Origin: Thiomicrorhabdus immobilis
Lineage (GTDB): Bacteria > Pseudomonadota > Gammaproteobacteria > Thiomicrospirales > Thiomicrospiraceae
Direction of reading: 5' to 3'
Length of the DNA stretch: 64,000 nucleotides
Assembly: GCF_021654855.1 (NCBI RefSeq)
Contig: NZ_AP024202.1
Span: forward strand, 2,418,001-2,482,000
A model generated the notes under the pieces. The model did not search any database and was not told the origin of the DNA. It was given only the letters and a program-made list of their open reading frames with translations. Below, one piece after another: positions 12,041 through 20,010 of this stretch. Position numbers and translations under genes: made by a program. How positions within the stretch are numbered: the stretch's first letter is position 1; each line of letters opens with the position of its first letter.

Positions 12041-12352
12041 TTAACGAATCTTCGCCGGTGTCGCGCCTGCCATTTCCAGAACAGGCTCAACTTCTTTGTG
12101 AGGACGTGCGATGATGTGTGCCGCAACTAAACCGTCGCCAACTCGTTCGCAAGCATCGGCTCCGGCACGTACCGCCGCGTTTACCGCCCCGGTTTCACCA
12201 CGGACCATTACCGTTACGTAACCACCGCCGACAAATTCACGACTCACTAATCGTACTTCTGCCGCTTTGGTCATGGCATCGGCCGCTTCAATCGCAGGCA
12301 CTAATCCGCGGGTTTCGATCATTCCTAAAGCTATTCCATATTCTGTACTCAT
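12041..12352 (-). CDS. csoS1: CsoS1 BMC-H shell protein, copy 4 (extended C-terminus)
   Basis: A 103-residue BMC-H protein forming the hexagonal facet tiles of the carboxysome shell. Core motifs GMIETRGLVPAIEAADAMTKAA and GGYVTVMVRGETGAVNAAVRAG are identical in all four copies. It differs only at the C-terminus, where VLTIEKA is replaced by VLEMAGATPAKIR. This tail lies on the hexamer surface in known structures and may tune packing or cargo contacts. It starts MSTEYG, as does copy 3. It is the last of four tandem copies. Confidence 0.95.
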   Translation of the reverse strand: MSTEYGIALGMIETRGLVPAIEAADAMTKAAEVRLVSREFVGGGYVTVMVRGETGAVNAAVRAGADACERVGDGLVAAHIIARPHKEVEPVLEMAGATPAKIR

Positions 12353-12385
12353 GGCTCTTCTCCTAAGGTTCTAAAGATGTGCTAA

Positions 12386-12679
12386 TTACGCTTTTTCAAT
12401 GGTTAATACAGGTTCCACTTCTTTGTGTGGACGTGCAATAATGTGTGCTGCAACTAAACCGTCGCCAACTCGTTCGCAAGCATCGGCTCCGGCACGTACC
12501 GCCGCGTTTACCGCCCCGGTTTCACCACGGACCATTACCGTTACGTAACCGCCGCCGACAAATTCACGACTCACTAATCGTACTTCTGCCGCTTTGGTCA
12601 TGGCATCGGCCGCTTCAATCGCAGGCACTAATCCGCGGGTTTCAATCATTCCTAAAGCTATTCCATATTCTGTACTCAT
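12386..12679 (-). CDS. csoS1: CsoS1 BMC-H shell protein, copy 3
   Basis: A 97-residue BMC-H hexamer subunit, starting MSTEYG and ending VLTIEKA. Apart from the extra Thr it is identical in sequence to copies 1 and 2. The spacer between copies 3 and 4 is nearly identical to that between copies 2 and 3 (12680-12712), so this gene arose by a recent duplication of gene plus spacer. A ribosome-binding AGGAG precedes the ATG. Confidence 0.95.
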   Translation of the reverse strand: MSTEYGIALGMIETRGLVPAIEAADAMTKAAEVRLVSREFVGGGYVTVMVRGETGAVNAAVRAGADACERVGDGLVAAHIIARPHKEVEPVLTIEKA

Positions 12680-12712
12680 GGCTCTTCTCCTAAGGTTCTA
12701 AAGATGTGCTAA

Positions 12713-13003
12713 TTACGCTTTTTCAATGGTTAATACAGGTTCCACTTCTTTGTGTGGACGTGCAATGATGTGCGCTGCAACTAAACCGTCGCCAACTCGT
12801 TCGCAAGCATCGGCTCCGGCACGCACTGCCGCGTTTACCGCCCCTGTTTCACCACGGACCATTACCGTTACGTAACCGCCGCCGACAAATTCACGACTCA
12901 CTAATCGTACTTCTGCCGCTTTGGTCATGGCATCGGCCGCTTCAATCGCAGGCACTAATCCACGGGTTTCGATCATTCCTAAAGCTATTCCATATTCACT
13001 CAT
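12713..13003 (-). CDS. csoS1: CsoS1 BMC-H shell protein, copy 2
   Basis: A 96-residue BMC-H hexamer subunit, identical in protein sequence to copy 1 but with scattered synonymous base differences (for example cgcactgccgcg in place of cgtaccgccgcg on the plus strand around 12822). Identical proteins with some silent drift suggest purifying selection or gene conversion. A 50-base spacer separates it from copy 1. Confidence 0.95.
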   Translation of the reverse strand: MSEYGIALGMIETRGLVPAIEAADAMTKAAEVRLVSREFVGGGYVTVMVRGETGAVNAAVRAGADACERVGDGLVAAHIIARPHKEVEPVLTIEKA

Positions 13004-13053
13004 GATAGTTCTCCTAAGTTCTAAAAAAATTTCTCAGCTCACTGCGTAATTCA

Positions 13054-13344
13054 TTAAGCTTTTTCAATGGTTAATACAGGTTCCACTTCTTTGTGTGGAC
13101 GTGCAATGATGTGTGCTGCAACTAAACCGTCGCCAACTCGTTCGCAAGCATCGGCTCCGGCACGTACCGCCGCGTTTACCGCTCCGGTTTCACCACGGAC
13201 CATTACCGTTACGTAACCGCCGCCGACAAATTCACGACTCACTAATCGTACTTCTGCCGCTTTGGTCATGGCATCGGCCGCTTCAATCGCAGGCACCAAT
13301 CCGCGGGTTTCAATCATTCCTAAAGCTATTCCATATTCACTCAT
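13054..13344 (-). CDS. csoS1: CsoS1 BMC-H shell protein, copy 1
   Basis: A 96-residue BMC-H subunit (MSEYGIALGMIETRGLVP to VLTIEKA). Six copies form a hexamer with a small central pore for bicarbonate, and hexamers tile the shell facets. It is the first shell-hexamer gene after csoS4B, with AGGAGAACT upstream of the ATG. Several CsoS1 paralogues are usual in alpha-carboxysomes (often three); four is above the usual number. Confidence 0.95.
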   Translation of the reverse strand: MSEYGIALGMIETRGLVPAIEAADAMTKAAEVRLVSREFVGGGYVTVMVRGETGAVNAAVRAGADACERVGDGLVAAHIIARPHKEVEPVLTIEKA

Positions 13345-13409
13345 GATAGTTCTCCTATTACCTTAATTTTCAGTTTGTTATTGACTGTTAGTTTGCTATT
13401 AATTTGTTG

Positions 13410-13664
13410 TTATTCGGTTTGTGTTGGCCAGTTATCAATGATTCCAGCAACCGTTAAATCCGTTAATATCTCATCGTCACCGGCAGCGGTTCTTGCTGCT
13501 GAGTTGGCTATGGTAAAAACCCAGTCGCCGTTTTTAACACCAATCGGATCAAGCGCCACTAAAGTTGAACCTGATACGCTTTGCAGTACTTTGATGGGTA
13601 GGTGGCCTAAGCCATCAAGTCGACTGGTCATAATTAATCTTTGTTTAACTTGATGTATCTCCAT
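13410..13664 (-). CDS. csoS4B: CsoS4B pentameric vertex protein
   Basis: An 84-residue BMC-P protein that caps the icosahedral vertices. Motifs: ALDPIGVKNGDWVFTIANSAAR and LTDLTVAGIID, parallel to CsoS4A. I choose the second in-frame ATG (13664, MEIHQV), which has GGGAGG at nine bases; the first ATG at 13670 lies only three bases from it. It overlaps the 3' end of csoS4A by 20 bases. Confidence 0.9.
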   Translation of the reverse strand: MEIHQVKQRLIMTSRLDGLGHLPIKVLQSVSGSTLVALDPIGVKNGDWVFTIANSAARTAAGDDEILTDLTVAGIIDNWPTQTE

Positions 13665-13917
13665 TGGCATTTACCTCCCATTTATCAATGATTCCCACTA
13701 TGGTCAAATCACTTGGGTAGCCCTTAATTCCGCTGGCATCTCGTGCCGCCGAACTCCCTACACATAACACCCAGTCTCCAGGCTTGCAGCCCACCGGATC
13801 TACCGCAACTTGGGGAGTTCCCCCTGGTTTTTCGGCTACCACCAGTAGGGGCTTATGCTCCATAGAGGCGATACGATTGGTGGAGACCAGTGTTTTTTCT
13901 ACGGTATAAATTTTCAT
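13645..13917 (-). CDS. csoS4A: CsoS4A pentameric vertex protein
   Basis: A 90-residue BMC-P protein with the family features VAVDPVGCKPGDWVLCVGSSAAR and PSDLTIVGIIDKW. Pentamers close the shell vertices; without them carboxysomes leak CO2. It begins 18 bases after csoSCA, with GGAGGG before the ATG. CsoS4A and CsoS4B are paralogues. Confidence 0.95.
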   Translation of the reverse strand: MKIYTVEKTLVSTNRIASMEHKPLLVVAEKPGGTPQVAVDPVGCKPGDWVLCVGSSAARDASGIKGYPSDLTIVGIIDKWEVNANGDTSS

Positions 13918-13934: not shown

Positions 13935-15452
13935 TTACGGCGCTACCAGGCCTGGTAATCTTTCTGCAGCTTGGTTGCCGGTGTTATCTCTTAAAGTACA
14001 TAGCGTTTGTAATTGACCTTTGGCGGATAATTCGCTGTATCGGTCATGCAATGCTTGCTCTATACGGTTGGCTTTCTCTTGCGCTCGGTCTTTTGAACCG
14101 GGGACTCTTCCGTCATAATCACAGCGGATAATGATGGGAATTGGCCAACCTTTTTTTAGATTAAGACCGGTGAAGATCTTAATCCCAACATTGACATCAT
14201 TCAGCCCCTCTTCAACCGTATCTAAATAGCTGTAATAGGTTAGGTTACGCAGTTGAACTTCTTCAAAACCGTTACCAATGCCAATAAATCTTTCTGCATG
14301 TCCAATGTCTGAATAACAACCGTTTTCATACGTTTTGACATACGCTATTTGAGAAAAATTGTTCTCAATAAACCAAGCAATCAGTTTGTTCATTGATTCA
14401 GCCGGTGCGGTGGAACCCACTTGTTGGTTACAACCGACTACCGCTTGCTGAATGAAGTCTCTGGCTTGCTCAGCGTTCATATTGTTTGTTTGGTGGTAAA
14501 GTGTGTCGGTTTCTACAAAACGTTTTAGACACACTTTGCCTTGTTGGTTTGGAACATGTACTTTCAGACTGTCGTCGTCGGTATTGATTCCAATCAGTAG
14601 CGTTTGTACGGTTGAACCGCACCCAAAACGGTTTTCAATGGCCTGTCTAAAATCTTTCAATCTTGATAGGGCCGCTTCTGCCGCTTTGTCATCATCACTG
14701 CCATGTGCCGCACATCCTTGATGATGTGGATCGGACTTGGAGTAGTGATAAACCGCCATTTTTAAATAACGTGTTGGCTCTTCAATTGAATTGGGTACCG
14801 CGTCACGAAAACGGCTGTGCTCAATGAAGACCCAATTACGTACACTTTCACTCACATCAAATAGAGCACCGGCGTGCGCCTTTCTTCTGGTTACCAAATA
14901 AGGTAGTCGCAAAACATAACTAATAAAGTGTGCTAAACGCCCGTCGGCACACGGTGCGACACCCACCGCATGAAACCCCGCTTCTCTGAAGATACGCTCA
15001 GCGTGTTGTTTGCTTTGACCACGCAATGGATCTTGTTCAAAAAACTCCTTAGACATCGCCATAAACTGTGCAAATACACACTGCCCGTATAAAACCTGGC
15101 TGTCGAACCCATGGCTAATAAATTCTTCAACCTGTTTTTGGCTGAATGTAATGCCTAGTTTTTGGCTGATTGTCTGTTGAGACCAGTAAACAAAATCACT
15201 ACGTTTTTGTTGTACAGTTAATAACTCTACAACCGACTTGATCTCATCAAACCCCGCTTTAATACGCATTTCATAGTCGCGTAACTGAACATTTTGTTGC
15301 GTATTAACCAGCGCATGTTGGCCAGTTGCTGCGTTAGAAAATGTTCCGTTAAAATCAGGTGAAGCCACTTCTTTGGAGCGATTCACAATATGTGCTGGCG
15401 GAGGTATTTGACGCCAGAACATTGATTTTTCACGATAGTTTGCGTTTAACAT
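13935..15452 (-). CDS. csoSCA: Carboxysomal carbonic anhydrase CsoSCA (epsilon/beta-type)
   Basis: A 505-residue enzyme that converts bicarbonate to CO2 inside the shell. The zinc-site region has VAPCADGRLAHF (Cys-Asp/Arg) and HHQGCAAHGSDD (His and Cys). The N-terminal part of about 60 residues (NANYREKSMFWRQ) is the variable segment that binds Rubisco in homologues. I prefer the ATG at 15452 with GGTGAT upstream, over a GTG nine bases earlier. It lies 21 bases after csoS2. The last codons (LPGLV) carry the ACCAGGCCTGGT palindrome. Confidence 0.95.
   Translation of the reverse strand: MLNANYREKSMFWRQIPPPAHIVNRSKEVASPDFNGTFSNAATGQHALVNTQQNVQLRDYEMRIKAGFDEIKSVVELLTVQQKRSDFVYWSQQTISQKLGITFSQKQVEEFISHGFDSQVLYGQCVFAQFMAMSKEFFEQDPLRGQSKQHAERIFREAGFHAVGVAPCADGRLAHFISYVLRLPYLVTRRKAHAGALFDVSESVRNWVFIEHSRFRDAVPNSIEEPTRYLKMAVYHYSKSDPHHQGCAAHGSDDDKAAEAALSRLKDFRQAIENRFGCGSTVQTLLIGINTDDDSLKVHVPNQQGKVCLKRFVETDTLYHQTNNMNAEQARDFIQQAVVGCNQQVGSTAPAESMNKLIAWFIENNFSQIAYVKTYENGCYSDIGHAERFIGIGNGFEEVQLRNLTYYSYLDTVEEGLNDVNVGIKIFTGLNLKKGWPIPIIIRCDYDGRVPGSKDRAQEKANRIEQALHDRYSELSAKGQLQTLCTLRDNTGNQAAERLPGLVAP
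13944..13957. repeat. TACCAGGCCTGGTA palindrome at the 3' end of csoSCA
   Basis: An exact copy of the iterated palindrome, extended by one base pair on each side and read as Leu-Pro-Gly-Leu-Val in csoSCA. Confidence 0.85.
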
Positions 15453-15473
15453 CTTTATCACCTATTTCATTGA

Positions 15474-17549
15474 CTACGCTCTGGCACCGCCAGATAAAGT
15501 CACTTTTGCACCTTGTCCGGTGTTACCAGATGACCCGGTAATTGGGCTTTGTGGTACTTCTTCCATTGCGGTTGGCCTAAAATTAGCCGCCCCCATTGGA
15601 GTCTGTCCCGCTACCCCTCTTACCGAAGGATTACGTTGTGTCGCAAAAGGCCCGTCAACGCCGGTCACTTTGCTGCCCCTATCCCAACCGTCGCCGGTGA
15701 TTCTGCTGCTCTTAGGAGCAGGTTCAACACTGGCTAAAGGTTGTGACATATCCACCGCTGTGGCTTGCCCCATCATAATCGGAAAATCCGACTCTCCCGG
15801 AGTGGCCGCTTGAGCGGTTTGGCACAATGCACTCATCTGATCAGTACCCTGGTAATGGGTACCAGAAACCAGTTCACATGCCCCTTTTTGAGCGCCAGTC
15901 AACCCCATTGGTCCAGGCTGAATACCCGTTAATGGGTAGCCAAACTGTCGGTCACTAGGCTGAGTTTTTTTTTGAACCTGCGCTTGTTCTTCAACGGAAC
16001 AACTGCTGGCAAAAGACTCTTTACCCATATAAGGTGTGCCGCTTACCGATTTACAACGTCCCGCTTCGCCGCCAGTAATATGACTACTGCCGCCACTGCG
16101 ATCGCCGGTTACTCTTTGCCCGCCGAATGTGCCTGAAATATTGACCTTTTCCGGCACTTTGTTTGGCGCGCTTGTTTGGCAAAGGGTTTCAACTTCTTCC
16201 CTGCCCTGGTATCCGGTGCCGCTCACGTTTTTACACGAGCCTCTATCCGCACCCGTTACCGCTTTGGGTTGACCTACTTGGGTACCGGTAGTGGTGGTGC
16301 CTGCAAAAGTGGTCGACATCAACACTTTTTTAGGCGCTTCATTATTTGAACCACTTGGCTTGATTGAACCCGACATAGCCGGAAAATCATTGCCACCACT
16401 TACTTTACGCTGGCTGCCTTCAAGTGAGCCTTTGCTTGCTGTAGTCGTTTTTGGCGATGGCCCCGGTTGGATGGAAAACCCACCTTTTGAGGTTGCTGCT
16501 TTGTCTGACTGAGCGCCACAAATCAAATCACTTTGATCAGCCGGTAAGTAATCTGTACCGGTTACCGCTTTGCATTGACCGGCACGATCACCTGTCACGC
16601 TTTTGGCTTGACCCATTTTGTTTCCACTAATGGTTTGTCCTTTAGTGGTTTGCGTGGATGTTACTTTTGCTGGTGCGGCTTTAGGAGTGTTTGAGCAATG
16701 TGTTTTAAACTCTTCCATCCCTAAATATTCCGTACCACTCACTAATTTACAGGCGCCTTTTTCCGTTCCGGTTGTAGCACCTTGACCTACCGCTGTGCCA
16801 GAGACATCTTGCCCACTCAAGGTTTGTGATAACGCCACCTTTTCGGGTGCGTTATTAGCACGACTTTTTGAGTTTTGACGTTTTTTTGAAGTATCGGTGG
16901 CGACTGCGCAACCACTTTTACCTTTACTACAACGTTGTGCTCTTACTGAGCGAGCAATCTCTCGAACTGACGCATCTGGGTTTGTCATTTTGGCCATAGA
17001 ACCGCTTTGTCCACTTTGCGATTTAAAAGCCATTTCACCTGACTTACCTTTAGCCAGTGCTTTACGCCATGCTTTAGACAACTTTCGTCCACTGTTGTCG
17101 GCAACTTGAGTTGCCACAACCGTGTTTCTACGACCAGAAGCATCGGCACGTTGTGTTTTTGCTTTGGTCTCTGTCTTAGCACGAGGTTCAACAATCGGCT
17201 CGGGCTTTTTCTTTTCCCTCGCCTTGGCTGCCGGTTGAGGCTGGTTACTCGCAGCTTGCCCACGTGTCATTTGCTTTCTTCTTTGTTTAGCGGCCTCTCG
17301 TCCTTCTGCAACCTTGATAGGTTGAGCGGGACGAACCGGTCTGCTAACAGAAGTCTCTACCACCTCTTGTCTTGGCGAGCTCGGCGTGCTGATAGCACTT
17401 GGAGAGGCTTCAACTTGAGCGGGAATGCTTGAAACAGCACTCTGCGCTCGAGTCGGTATCGCTGGTGCATTATTCTTACCAGAAGCTCTTGATTTGCGGT
17501 GTGCCATAGCTTGTGTGCGCCCACTCGGGGTATTTGTCATTTCACTCAT
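15474..17549 (-). CDS. csoS2: CsoS2 carboxysome assembly scaffold
   Basis: A 691-residue, basic, disordered scaffold. The N-terminal domain holds short Rubisco-binding repeats (RRKQMTRGQA, GRKLSKAWRKALAKGKSG, REIARSVRAQRC). A middle region repeats VSGTxYxGxE and AGQCKAVTG-like units several times, most with paired Cys. The C-terminal domain, after about residue 530, interacts with the shell. GGAGG lies eight bases before the ATG. An A9 run at codons 526-528 is a strong frameshift site: the -1 frame ends after three codons, predicting a 531-residue short form lacking the C-terminal domain. Two isoforms made by frameshifting are established in Halothiobacillus neapolitanus. Confidence 0.95.
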   Translation of the reverse strand: MSEMTNTPSGRTQAMAHRKSRASGKNNAPAIPTRAQSAVSSIPAQVEASPSAISTPSSPRQEVVETSVSRPVRPAQPIKVAEGREAAKQRRKQMTRGQAASNQPQPAAKAREKKKPEPIVEPRAKTETKAKTQRADASGRRNTVVATQVADNSGRKLSKAWRKALAKGKSGEMAFKSQSGQSGSMAKMTNPDASVREIARSVRAQRCSKGKSGCAVATDTSKKRQNSKSRANNAPEKVALSQTLSGQDVSGTAVGQGATTGTEKGACKLVSGTEYLGMEEFKTHCSNTPKAAPAKVTSTQTTKGQTISGNKMGQAKSVTGDRAGQCKAVTGTDYLPADQSDLICGAQSDKAATSKGGFSIQPGPSPKTTTASKGSLEGSQRKVSGGNDFPAMSGSIKPSGSNNEAPKKVLMSTTFAGTTTTGTQVGQPKAVTGADRGSCKNVSGTGYQGREEVETLCQTSAPNKVPEKVNISGTFGGQRVTGDRSGGSSHITGGEAGRCKSVSGTPYMGKESFASSCSVEEQAQVQKKTQPSDRQFGYPLTGIQPGPMGLTGAQKGACELVSGTHYQGTDQMSALCQTAQAATPGESDFPIMMGQATAVDMSQPLASVEPAPKSSRITGDGWDRGSKVTGVDGPFATQRNPSVRGVAGQTPMGAANFRPTAMEEVPQSPITGSSGNTGQGAKVTLSGGARA
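15952..15974 (-). other. Predicted -1 ribosomal frameshift site in csoS2
   Basis: The mRNA reads C followed by nine A (A9 at 15965-15973), in frame as CAA AAA AAA ACT. The heptamer A-AAA-AAA fits the X-XXY-YYZ slippage pattern. In the -1 frame it continues AAC TCA GCC TAG TGA, two adjacent stops. A 5-bp hairpin (TACCC/GGGTA, 15923-15938) begins 26 bases downstream, further than usual. Transcript slippage on the A run could give the same result. Confidence 0.65.
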
Positions 17550-17597
17550 GCTAAAGGCCTCCCTTTATTCATTGCTTACGTTCATTACAACCTTGGC

Positions 17598-17942
17598 TTA
17601 CATGCCTCTTGGGCGGTAAACCACAAAGTTGTGACCCTGACACTGCGTGTAGTTGTCATAACCAATTACACGAATAAGATGATCAGGATAAGCCTGACGA
17701 CAGGCGTCAATTTCGGCTAATACTTGGTTTGGATCACGCATTCCAAAGAACGGCAATTTCCACATCCCCCAGTAATGGCGAGAGGCTTTTTCTGGCACTT
17801 CGTGCTCTAGCGCAGGTGTCCAACCTTGGTTAATGATGTATACAATTTGGTCATAAATTTCGTCTGCATTCATATCAGGCAAAAATGAAAATGTCTCAAG
17901 CGTATACTTAGTACGATAGTCATCAGTCATTAAGTTACTCAT
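17598..17942 (-). CDS. cbbS: Rubisco small subunit, form IA
   Basis: A 114-residue small subunit with [22 protein letters not shown] and [20 protein letters not shown]. Eight copies cap the L8 core of Rubisco and contribute to the CsoS2 binding groove. It is the second gene of the operon, 47 bases after cbbL. Its length is standard for form IA. Confidence 0.97.
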
Positions 17943-17989
17943 TTGTAATCTCCTACAATTTCAATAATCTGCTTTGCGTTAACCCATCA

Positions 17990-19405
17990 TTAACCGGCAT
18001 CTAACTTATCAACCGTGTCATATTCAAACTTGATCTCTTTCCAAGTCTCTAAAGCCACAGCCAACTCTTTACTGCTACGGGCTGCGTCACGTAAGATGTC
18101 ACCACCTTCTCGTTCAAGATCACGCCCTTCGTTTCGTGCTTTAACACACGCTTCTAAAGCCACACGGTTAGCGGCAGCACCGGCTGCGTTACCACCTGGG
18201 TGACCTTGCGTACCCCCACCAAACTGCAGTACAGAGTCATCACCGAAGATGTTTACCAGAGCTGGCATGTGCCAAACGTGGATACCACCTGAAGCGACCG
18301 CAAATACACCTGGCATTGACGCCCAATCTTGGTCAAAGAAGATACCGCGTGAACGGTCTTCTGGAACAAAGTCTTCGCGTAGTAAATCAACAAAACCTAG
18401 GGTAGAAGCTCTATCCCCTTCTAACTTACCGACTACCGTACCGGTATGTAGGTGGTCACCCCCTGACAAACGTAAACACTTAGCCAATACACGGAAGTGA
18501 ATACCGTGTTTTGGGTTACGGTCAATTACGGCGTGCATCGCACGGTGAATGTGTAATAACATGCCGTTTTCACGACACCAGTTAGCCAAAGTGGTATTGG
18601 CGGTAAAACCAGCGGTTAAGAAGTCGTGCATGATGATCGGCTGGCCAAGTTCTTTGGCAAATTCAGCACGTTTCATCATCTCTTCAACCGAACCGGCAGT
18701 AACGTTCAAGTAGTGACCTTTACGCTCACCTGTCTCTTCAGTCGCTTTGTTAACCGCTTCAGCAACAAACTCAAAACGGTTGCGCCAGCGCTGGAAAGGC
18801 TGCGAGTTGATGTTTTCATCATCTTTGGTTAAATCTAGACCACCGCGTAAACATTCATAAACCGCTCGACCGTAGTTTTTAGCGGAAAGACCTAATTTAG
18901 GTTTGATGGTACAACCCAACATTGGACGACCATATTTGTTTAGCTTGTCACGCTCAACCTGAATACCCGCTGGCGGTCCACCACACGTTTTAACAAACGC
19001 AACCGGAAAACGGATATCTTCTAAACGTAAAGCACGTACCGCTTTAAATCCGAATACGTTACCTACCAATGAGGTTAAAACGTTGACCACTGAACCTTCT
19101 TCAAAAAGGTCTAGCGGATAGGCAATAAATGCGTAAAATGATTCTTTATCACCTGGAACATCTTCAATTCGGTAACAACGACCTTTGTAGTACTCCATAT
19201 CAGACAGTAGATCTGTCCATACGGTGGTCCAAGTTCCGGTTGAACTTTCCGCGGCTACCGCAGCAGCCGCTTCTTCACGTGGAACACCCGCTTGTGGTGT
19301 TACCTTGAAGCACGCTAATAAATCTGTATCTAGTGGTGTATAGTCAGGTGTCCAATAGGTCAACTGATAATCCTGTACACCGGCATCAAAAGTTTGTGTA
19401 GACAT
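17990..19405 (-). CDS. cbbL: Rubisco large subunit, form IA (carboxysomal)
   Basis: A 471-residue catalytic subunit that carboxylates ribulose-1,5-bisphosphate. The carbamylated lysine is in [11 protein letters not shown], loop 6 in TVVGKLEGD and the other substrate-binding motif in [21 protein letters not shown] choose the ATG at 19405 ([15 protein letters not shown]), which has AGAGGAG upstream; an upstream in-frame extension has no ribosome-binding site. First gene of the operon; its promoter lies in the AT-rich divergent region shared with dabB. Confidence 0.98.
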
Positions 19406-20010
19406 AGAATTTCTCCTCTTAGGGTTTGGAGTTGCATTAAATTCGAGCTCAATGTTATAGAGCCACCAAACCATTGACTAATTGAAAGAAACGATAGGAA
19501 ATATTGAGCAAACTCTATATATTTGAGAAAAACAACAAAATAAACCAATGCAACACGTTGTTTTTAAATGCTTTTTATTTTTTTAGAAATTAAGCGATTT
19601 TTTTAACAATTTTTTCAAAAAATGTTTTTTTAGCTACAAAAATTATTTTTCATTGAGCATTTTTAGTGTTTTTGAACACCTAAAAAATAAAAAACAGACA
19701 AATATTCCTTAATTCTTAATCCTTATTTTTTGATAAACCAAAAAGTCATAAGTCATAAGCCATAATTCAAAATCCACAACCAATCACTATCGACTAACGT
19801 CTATTTTCTTAACTGTCCACTGCAAACTAAAAACCAATCCAATCCCCCTTATAAACAGAGAGAGTTTGTTTGCCCATTTTTGTATAAATAGGTATCTCTC
19901 TATGATAGTTATTGGATTTATCAATTATTCATCCGCATCAGAGTTGTCTAAGATTTGTCTCAAAGATGCACTACTGCATTGGTTTTTAATTTAAGGATAG
20001 GAGCGGTTTT
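19406..20010. promoter_or_regulatory. Divergent regulatory region between cbbL and dabB
   Basis: A 605-base gap with no gene, extremely AT-rich from about 19560 to 19740 with long T and A runs. AATATTGAG (19500-19508) and CTCTATATATT (19513-19523) form an imperfect inverted repeat about 95 bases upstream of cbbL, of the T-N11-A type LysR proteins favour; it is a CbbR operator candidate. On the minus strand a weak TTAGTC-N16-TATAAC promoter lies nearer cbbL. On the plus side, TATAAA near 19884 could be the dabB -10 box. A TTTTTAG/CTAAAAA imperfect hairpin lies near 19661-19690. All site calls are tentative. Confidence 0.5.

Follow-up and report, generated by a model that had tools for sequence, protein, structure and literature searches.

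Introduction

CsoS2, the scaffold protein of the alpha-carboxysome, is made in a long and a short form in Halothiobacillus neapolitanus, where a -1 frameshift in the sixth middle repeat, with a stem-loop on its 3' side, adds three -1-frame residues before the stop and operates at about 50% efficiency (PMC5009743, PMC11365436, PMC12918739). The short form lacks the C-terminal domain, which binds the shell near the pentamers; its abundance is reported to be close to that of the long form, and it is not essential (PMC11365436). A 2016 study (Chaijarasphong) predicted frameshifting in 79 of 162 species, as related in PMC5009743. In dnaX of Thermus thermophilus, polymerase slippage on a run of nine A residues (A9) yields about half short product (PMC1088944, PMC5009743). 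Here we analyse csoS2 of Thiomicrorhabdus immobilis, which lies on the minus strand at 15474..17549 of a 64,000-nucleotide stretch of genomic DNA (the window) and contains an A9 run late in the gene.

A first-pass annotation of the window had described this run as a programmed -1 frameshift site mirroring the CsoS2A/CsoS2B site of H. neapolitanus, with transcriptional slippage as an alternative. The idea of a short scaffold form is known from that species, whereas the site and the probable mechanism differ here. We propose, at about even odds (a probability of roughly 0.5), that the A9 run is a slippage site splitting csoS2 expression, and that slippage by RNA polymerase is the main route at a site that is maintained. 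It appears likely that a short CsoS2 isoform is made; that the site is maintained for the sake of this isoform we also favour, if less firmly. The occurrence, level and use of slippage are what we infer from the gene and its relatives. In the literature searched we found no A run or transcriptional slippage described for csoS2, although the 2016 study may include this species or its relatives.

Results

The A9 run occupies 15965..15973 on the minus strand (nine T on the plus strand) and spans codons 526-529, CAA AAA AAA ACT, with an in-frame A_AAA_AAA heptamer inside it. The minus-one frame, which is also reached by one extra A, reads AAC TCA GCC TAG TGA (15952..15966, minus) and so ends at tandem stops after Asn-Ser-Ala; the predicted product has 528+3 = 531 residues, compared with 691 at full length, and its C-terminus would be ..QVQKKNSA. 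The plus-one frame (or one A lost) runs through 11 codons, LSLVTDSLATH, to a TAA at 15931-15929 (15929..15964, minus), with a predicted C-terminus of ..QKKLSLVTDSLATH. The first-pass annotation had the run, its frames and the tandem stops right, as rereading of 15966-15952 confirmed, and the product lengths and the plus-one TAA at the twelfth codon were also correct. Near stops are present in both other frames, at the fourth codon in the minus-one and the twelfth in the plus-one frame; in csoS2 a stop this near has a base rate of 0.28 for the minus-one frame (no more than three codons ahead of it) and 0.49 for the plus-one frame (no more than 12).

The 691-residue protein is CsoS2: it matches PF12288 with an E-value of 2.8e-92, and it scores 992.4 bits over residues 7-691 against the NCBIfam model NF050161 (CbxsomAssCsoS2Hyd), exceeding the curated cut-off of 850. 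Its layout, as read from the sequence, consists of N-terminal repeats, middle repeats (VTG..C..VTG.Y..C) and a C-terminal domain starting at LTGIQPG. The A9 run sits in a linker, with the last full middle repeat (..CKSVSGTPYMGKESFASSC) on one side and LTGIQPG on the other. Both slipped products would lack codons 529-691 (15474..15965, minus), that is, the remainder of the linker and the C-terminal domain, a boundary supported by the repeat layout and by relatives. The proposed loss of the C-terminal domain was therefore well placed, the cut falling between the middle repeats and that domain; judged from this layout, slippage at A9 would yield a protein resembling CsoS2A, in which the N-terminal domain and all full middle repeats are retained. 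Because the long frame is open through the run and an identical A9 is found in two other genomes, the run alone does not point to a sequencing or assembly error, a concern that had been raised along with its conservation.

The csoS2 run is the only run of at least nine A or T in the window. The genome, a single contig of 2.54 Mb, contains 34 runs of at least nine on either strand (35 nonamers). Seven of them are A-sense within open reading frames (ORFs) of at least 100 residues: one lies before the first Met, one in the last codons of dciA, and five are internal to genes identified by Pfam as DUF5666, LppC, a histidine kinase, dnaX and csoS2. We compared 341 mechanically defined ORFs (376.7 kb; ATG start, at least 120 residues), taken from the window and 20 further stretches, with synonymous codon shuffles. 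Runs of at least nine A occur once, against 9.5 +/- 1.9 expected, the one being the csoS2 site itself; the sample includes the window and so is not independent of the finding. Runs of at least eight occur 17 times against 29.7 expected, and in-frame A_AAA_AAR 37 times against 61.1. Thus, A9 is avoided about tenfold in the sampled genes, and the csoS2 site stands against this genome-wide avoidance. Avoidance of A runs has been taken as a mark of slippage-prone genomes (Baranov 2005, PMC1088944).

The five gene-internal runs were followed into two congeners (G031 and G049), where only those of dnaX and csoS2 recur; the LppC and DUF5666 orthologues there lack the run, and the histidine kinase has no good orthologue. 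A reverse search from G031, which has 13 A-sense A9 runs in ORFs of at least 100 residues, gave three clear orthologue pairs sharing A9 with the window genome: csoS2, dnaX and the end of dciA. A further pair of 20% identity carries runs at unrelated places. At the dciA end (locus L141, 1501-1530), the A9 in the last codons lies beside CGCCTC-TGAGT-GAGGCG-TTTT, a sequence with the look of a two-way terminator that overlaps the gene end.

The dnaX run of the window genome (locus L144, G000:C1:1950979-1950987, minus, identified by Pfam) lies at the gamma/tau boundary of what is the textbook case of a gene with a programmed shorter product. The genus survey matched 31 of 32 genomes, and the 30 loci listed were read (L281-L310), at least two of them cut ORFs unable to show a run. 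A9 is present in eight of the 30 and A10 in two, and in all ten the minus-one stop falls within six codons and the plus-one stop within three. By its sequence, this dnaX has a Thermus-type layout, here in Gammaproteobacteria. All three A9 csoS2 genes sit in genomes with an A9 dnaX; Thiomicrorhabdus chilensis has a dnaX without the run and A7G in csoS2, and G032 has the dnaX run and no csoS2 match. The csoS2 and dnaX sites are alike in run length, in the genomes that carry them and in truncation at a domain boundary, and they differ in spread: ten of the 30 listed dnaX loci compared with csoS2 of only three species. Because dnaX in the same genome has the same run length and both other frames closed, polymerase slippage is the better first guess for A9. 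What had been offered as an alternative thereby becomes the leading candidate, with the same dnaX arrangement in all three A9 genomes.

To place the run among csoS2 genes we collected 120 csoS2-bearing loci from the family and the class (L078 and L120 are the same cut gene); the gene is present in 47 of the 62 genomes of the family and in 72 of the 369 sampled from the class. An order-level search repeated the family result, and a family search around genome G087 yielded just two genomes. The closest gene fetched is that of T. chilensis DSM 12352 (genome G024, locus L008), with 76-77% identity. A9 is present at the same codons in loci L006 and L007, and T. chilensis has A_AAA_AAG (A7G). The four A-run genes fall together in a single clade (support 92) of a protein tree calculated from 113 csoS2 rows; the window gene groups with T. 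chilensis (99) and L006 with L007 (100). The tree was built by a quick method with the Shimodaira-Hasegawa-like approximate likelihood ratio test (SH-aLRT) as its only support, and L049, L050, L055, L078, L091, L118 and L120 were left out. A9 is thus found in three of the four clade members, two of which are near-copies of each other. Between the two A9 branches, only about half of the codons at conserved residues are the same. The slip-site run is the only run of at least six A common to all four genes, and the T. chilensis gene has no other. Across 48 family csoS2 genes of useful length the longest A run is nine in the three A9 genes and at most seven elsewhere; the 67 csoS2 genes outside the family include one A9 (L112, at another place) and one A8. 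Two adjacent lysines (KK) are present in this linker in 4 of 42 genes.

The slip site of this clade shows no synonymous constraint, ranking 132-306 of 571 nine-codon windows. Single folds of the four A-run genes gave z-scores of -1.1 (window gene, two lengths), -0.6, +0.7 and -0.8, with the fold starting 3 nt after the run in the window gene, 13 nt in its A9 relatives and further away in the fourth gene. At equal offset, the stability of the downstream 50 nt lies at the 19th (window), 29th, 11th and 36th percentile of the gene concerned. RNAalifold found no conserved structure in the four-member alignment (two of 19 predicted pairs with two-sided change, covariation term -0.19), and an Rfam scan of 15000-18000 at E-values up to 1 returned no match. 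A downstream structure as stimulator was rejected, given that single folds, the sliding within-gene comparison and RNAalifold all gave nothing conserved. Upstream of the run in the window gene, the only Shine-Dalgarno-like sequence is AGGU, two bases before the run, which we judged too close and too short; T. chilensis alone among the four has GAGGAG 13 nt before its run. Of the first-pass reading as a programmed -1 site, the CsoS2A-like slipped product and the presence of the run in relatives stand, while synonymous constraint and a conserved stimulatory structure are missing. This absence is expected for polymerase slippage, because A9 needs neither.

Other csoS2 genes carry slip sites of different kinds. 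We counted heptamers whose second triplet is A or T, with a minus-one stop within four codons, in 114 csoS2 genes (six of the 120 loci were set aside for N in the gene or a length below 600 residues). There were 66, against 26.7 expected, with at least one in 52 genes, and 28 of the 66 are accounted for by twelve C_CCA_AAR and sixteen A_AAT_TTT sites. The C_CCA_AAR heptamer lies at one place inside a middle repeat in 12 genes, with the minus-one stop after three codons in 11 and after one in L040; for stability, the 50 nt that follow rank in the top 1-20% of their gene in every case but L094, which is at 53%. L091 has the site too and was excluded from the twelve for its N residues. These features agree with what is reported of H. 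neapolitanus (three minus-one-frame residues, a 3' stem-loop, the sixth repeat), and we infer that C_CCA_AAR is the heptamer of that species too. The suggestion that the window site mirrors the H. neapolitanus one is not supported: the cassette of these 12 relatives lies at another place, inside a repeat, and uses another signal. A_AAT_TTT is found in 16 genes forming three groups: Thiomicrospira (eight), a Thiomicrorhabdus clade of metagenome-assembled genomes (four) and a group from other families (four). In the canonical C_CCA_AAR set (eight of the twelve genes were tested) and in each of the three A_AAT_TTT groups, synonymous identity peaks on the slip site. It comes first of 311, of 587 and of 113 in three of the four sets, the last figure being that of the canonical C_CCA_AAR genes, and ties for first place of 637 in the remaining one. 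The missing synonymous peak is the clearest difference of the window clade; it speaks against a ribosomal cassette with extended signals and not against A9 slippage.

Some of these sites deserve separate description. In Thiomicrospira (L002, L003, L004, L010, L015, L017, L022 and L026) A_AAT_TTT lies at codons 439-443, with 0-1 codons before the minus-one stop, and is followed at 5 nt by a GCCTG-TTA-CAGGC stem, the outer pair of which shows a compensating change in L003 and is disrupted in L015; this site has the strongest synonymous conservation of the gene (rank 1 of 311). In L061, L063, L064 and L071, A_AAT_TTT lies at the boundary of repeats and C-terminal domain (codons 526-556), and shared-residue codons are identical over the nine-codon windows at the site (1.00, compared with a gene mean of 0.47); no stable hairpin was found downstream. 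Two distant csoS2 genes of the window's family, L039 (G021) and L040 (G001), have C_CCA_AAG and are grouped by the tree with other families, so that their carboxysome genes were possibly gained by transfer; the 50 nt behind the L039 heptamer are the most stable of 32 sites compared. Further sites include G_GGA_AAC, G_GGA_AAG and stray C_CCA_AAR elsewhere in the gene, for example in L099, L108 and L111. Eight csoS2 genes of one group (g3), including that of Hydrogenovibrio sp. JE_KL2, have no A run longer than seven and one isolated G_GGA_AAC with a near minus-one stop. Thiomicrospira crunogena is now counted as Hydrogenovibrio, and this presumed genus lacks the A-run site.

Discussion

The window gene resembles that of H. 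neapolitanus in being csoS2, in having three minus-one-frame residues (NSA, then TAG TGA) before the stop, within a few codons of the slip, and in the predicted loss of the C-terminal domain. It differs in that the H. neapolitanus site lies in the sixth middle repeat and has a 3' stem-loop, whereas here A_AAA_AAA lies in the linker past the last full middle repeat, the downstream RNA is at the 19% level of its own gene with no stem shared by the clade, the site shows no synonymous constraint, and both other frames close. The likeness to Thermus dnaX is closer: a sense-strand A9 late in the gene, the full-length product in the zero frame, close stops in both other frames, a shorter product without the C-terminal part, and avoidance of A9 in genes. 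The differences are the gene itself, the plus-one stop 11 codons away, and the fact that slippage is predicted from sequence here. The frameshift site of E. coli dnaX, A_AAA_AAG, has a Shine-Dalgarno-like upstream element and a hairpin downstream. T. chilensis csoS2 is similar to it in its heptamer, the single codon before the minus-one stop and GAGGAG at 13 nt; the window gene is unlike it: its A_AAA_AAA lies inside A9, and it lacks both an upstream element of this kind and a clear hairpin.

In the mechanism we envisage, the A:T hybrid over A9 would let RNA polymerase realign during transcription. Messages with nine (or 12) A residues would encode full-length CsoS2, and those with eight, 10 or 11 would run into the nearby stops and give proteins of 531-540 residues from which the C-terminal domain is missing. 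Ribosomes slipping by -1 on A_AAA_AAA probably contribute as well; the minus-one product, ending in ..QKKNSA, would be identical by either route. Short CsoS2 would still hold Rubisco and, via its repeats, shell proteins. Given that slipped ribosomes would end about 480 nt short of the csoS2 end, translation of the next gene, csoSCA, might drop. The A9 site is probably maintained, taking in this lineage the place that the ribosomal cassette has in other csoS2 genes.

Several observations weigh against this proposal. The A run is confined to four species, and L006 and L007 are 96% identical. The T. chilensis run forms a ribosomal heptamer like that of E. coli dnaX, the minus-one stop coming after one codon, and it is shorter than the nine A residues that the literature ties to efficient polymerase slippage. 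In codon shuffles, A_AAA_AAR with a minus-one stop within four codons arises at this place in 27% of shuffles of the window gene, 42% for L006 and 14% for L008; jointly the three lineages give 1.3%, and the place tested was picked with hindsight. To have a slippery heptamer and a stop close by somewhere in the window csoS2 is nothing unusual (p = 0.345). Relatives often have basic residues in this linker, so the two lysines may be kept for the protein. Once Gln-Lys-Lys is in place, the chance that codon use supplies a heptamer plus stop is not small, so the site alone proves little and its company matters; conservation of the heptamer was accordingly dismissed as a weak proof of selection. dciA is a third gene sharing A9 with G031, though explained by a terminator, and six genomes (G023, G026, G027, G029, G033 and G048) have A9 or A10 in dnaX and no such run in csoS2. 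Finally, a single CsoS2 form is reported for carboxysomes of T. crunogena (PMC4499774).

The run could be incidental, arising from a Gln-Lys-Lys linker in a genome rich in AAA and CAA, with some slippage possible and unused. This account has a minor share of our belief. It draws on the codon shuffles, the lack of local synonymous constraint, the basic linkers of relatives and the non-conserved gene-internal runs of at least nine A in three other genes of the genome; it fits poorly with the tenfold avoidance of A9, with recurrence in congeners of only the csoS2 and dnaX runs among the five, and with a position at the very boundary where truncation yields a CsoS2A-like protein. Programmed -1 ribosomal frameshifting on A_AAA_AAA as the main route, with polymerase slippage minor, seems unlikely. 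What all four genes share is the heptamer rather than A9 (A_AAA_AAA in three, A_AAA_AAG in T. chilensis), all four have a minus-one stop within four codons, in-frame A_AAA_AAR is avoided in the sampled genes, and T. chilensis adds GAGGAG and its one-codon minus-one stop. Yet fold z-scores and stability percentiles reveal no conserved hairpin in the four genes, the site is free of the synonymous constraint that peaks in the four other slip-site sets, and in E. coli A_AAA_AAA is reported to be less shift-prone than A_AAA_AAG (PMC5009743).

Homopolymer tracts also slip in replication (PMC1088944), which would make csoS2 phase-variable, with a long/short switch at the DNA level in the population. 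All three long-run genomes, however, have exactly A9, in frame. Nine bases are also short for a contingency tract, and we regard such a switch as very improbable. Still more improbable is a role for T9 as the end of an intrinsic terminator acting on plus-strand transcription. The terminator scan did find a stem ahead of T9 (15948..15963, plus), and the A9 at the dciA end is explained in the same way; however, this stem is weak and probably due to chance, having six pairs of which only three are G-C, its flank is only partly conserved in the clade, and 15450-17600 contains two terminator-like sites compared with 3.6 expected in shuffles.

If polymerase slippage on A9 is the main route, the ratio of the CsoS2 forms would respond to transcription rather than translation. 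A wider reading, which we hold tentatively and below even odds, is that the long/short split of CsoS2 was re-invented several times by different recoding devices at different places. These might be C_CCA_AAR and a hairpin inside a repeat; A_AAT_TTT in three groups, whether or not a hairpin follows; and A9 with polymerase slippage at the boundary of repeats and C-terminal domain in the window clade. If this reading is true, a single cell would rely on one property of its polymerase to set subunit ratios in two assemblies, the clamp loader of the replisome (dnaX) and the carboxysome scaffold. If unrelated lineages do arrive again and again, by different means, at a CsoS2 cut short of its C-terminal domain, the short form would be under selection, and species without any slip site would be natural controls.

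Gene neighbourhood and other csoS2 observations

The genes around csoS2 are arranged on one strand in the order cbbL, cbbS, csoS2, csoSCA, two pentamer genes and four genes for bacterial microcompartment (BMC) shell proteins. The Rubisco genes cbbL and cbbS (17598..19474, minus; profile scan) lie upstream. csoSCA (13935..15461, minus), identified by its CsoSCA Pfam domains, has in the ORF list a GTG start 12 nt past the csoS2 stop codon. Two EutN/CcmL-type (pentamer) and four BMC-type ORFs follow at 12041..13917 on the minus strand; the profile scan covered the two EutN/CcmL ORFs and half of the BMC ORFs, and the other two BMC ORFs are near-identical in the ORF list. The four csoS1-type BMC genes form a tandem array of nearly identical copies at 12041-13344 (minus).

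As far as the literature was searched, we found no description of a fusion of CbbX and CsoS2. Locus L112 (733-4137, minus) has a 1135-residue ORF that fuses the Rubisco activase CbbX (TIGR02880, residues 22-301, over cut-off) to CsoS2; the CsoS2 part exceeds the PF12288 cut-off and falls below those of the CsoS2 NCBIfam models. Its in-frame A9 is at codon 316, directly after the CbbX part.

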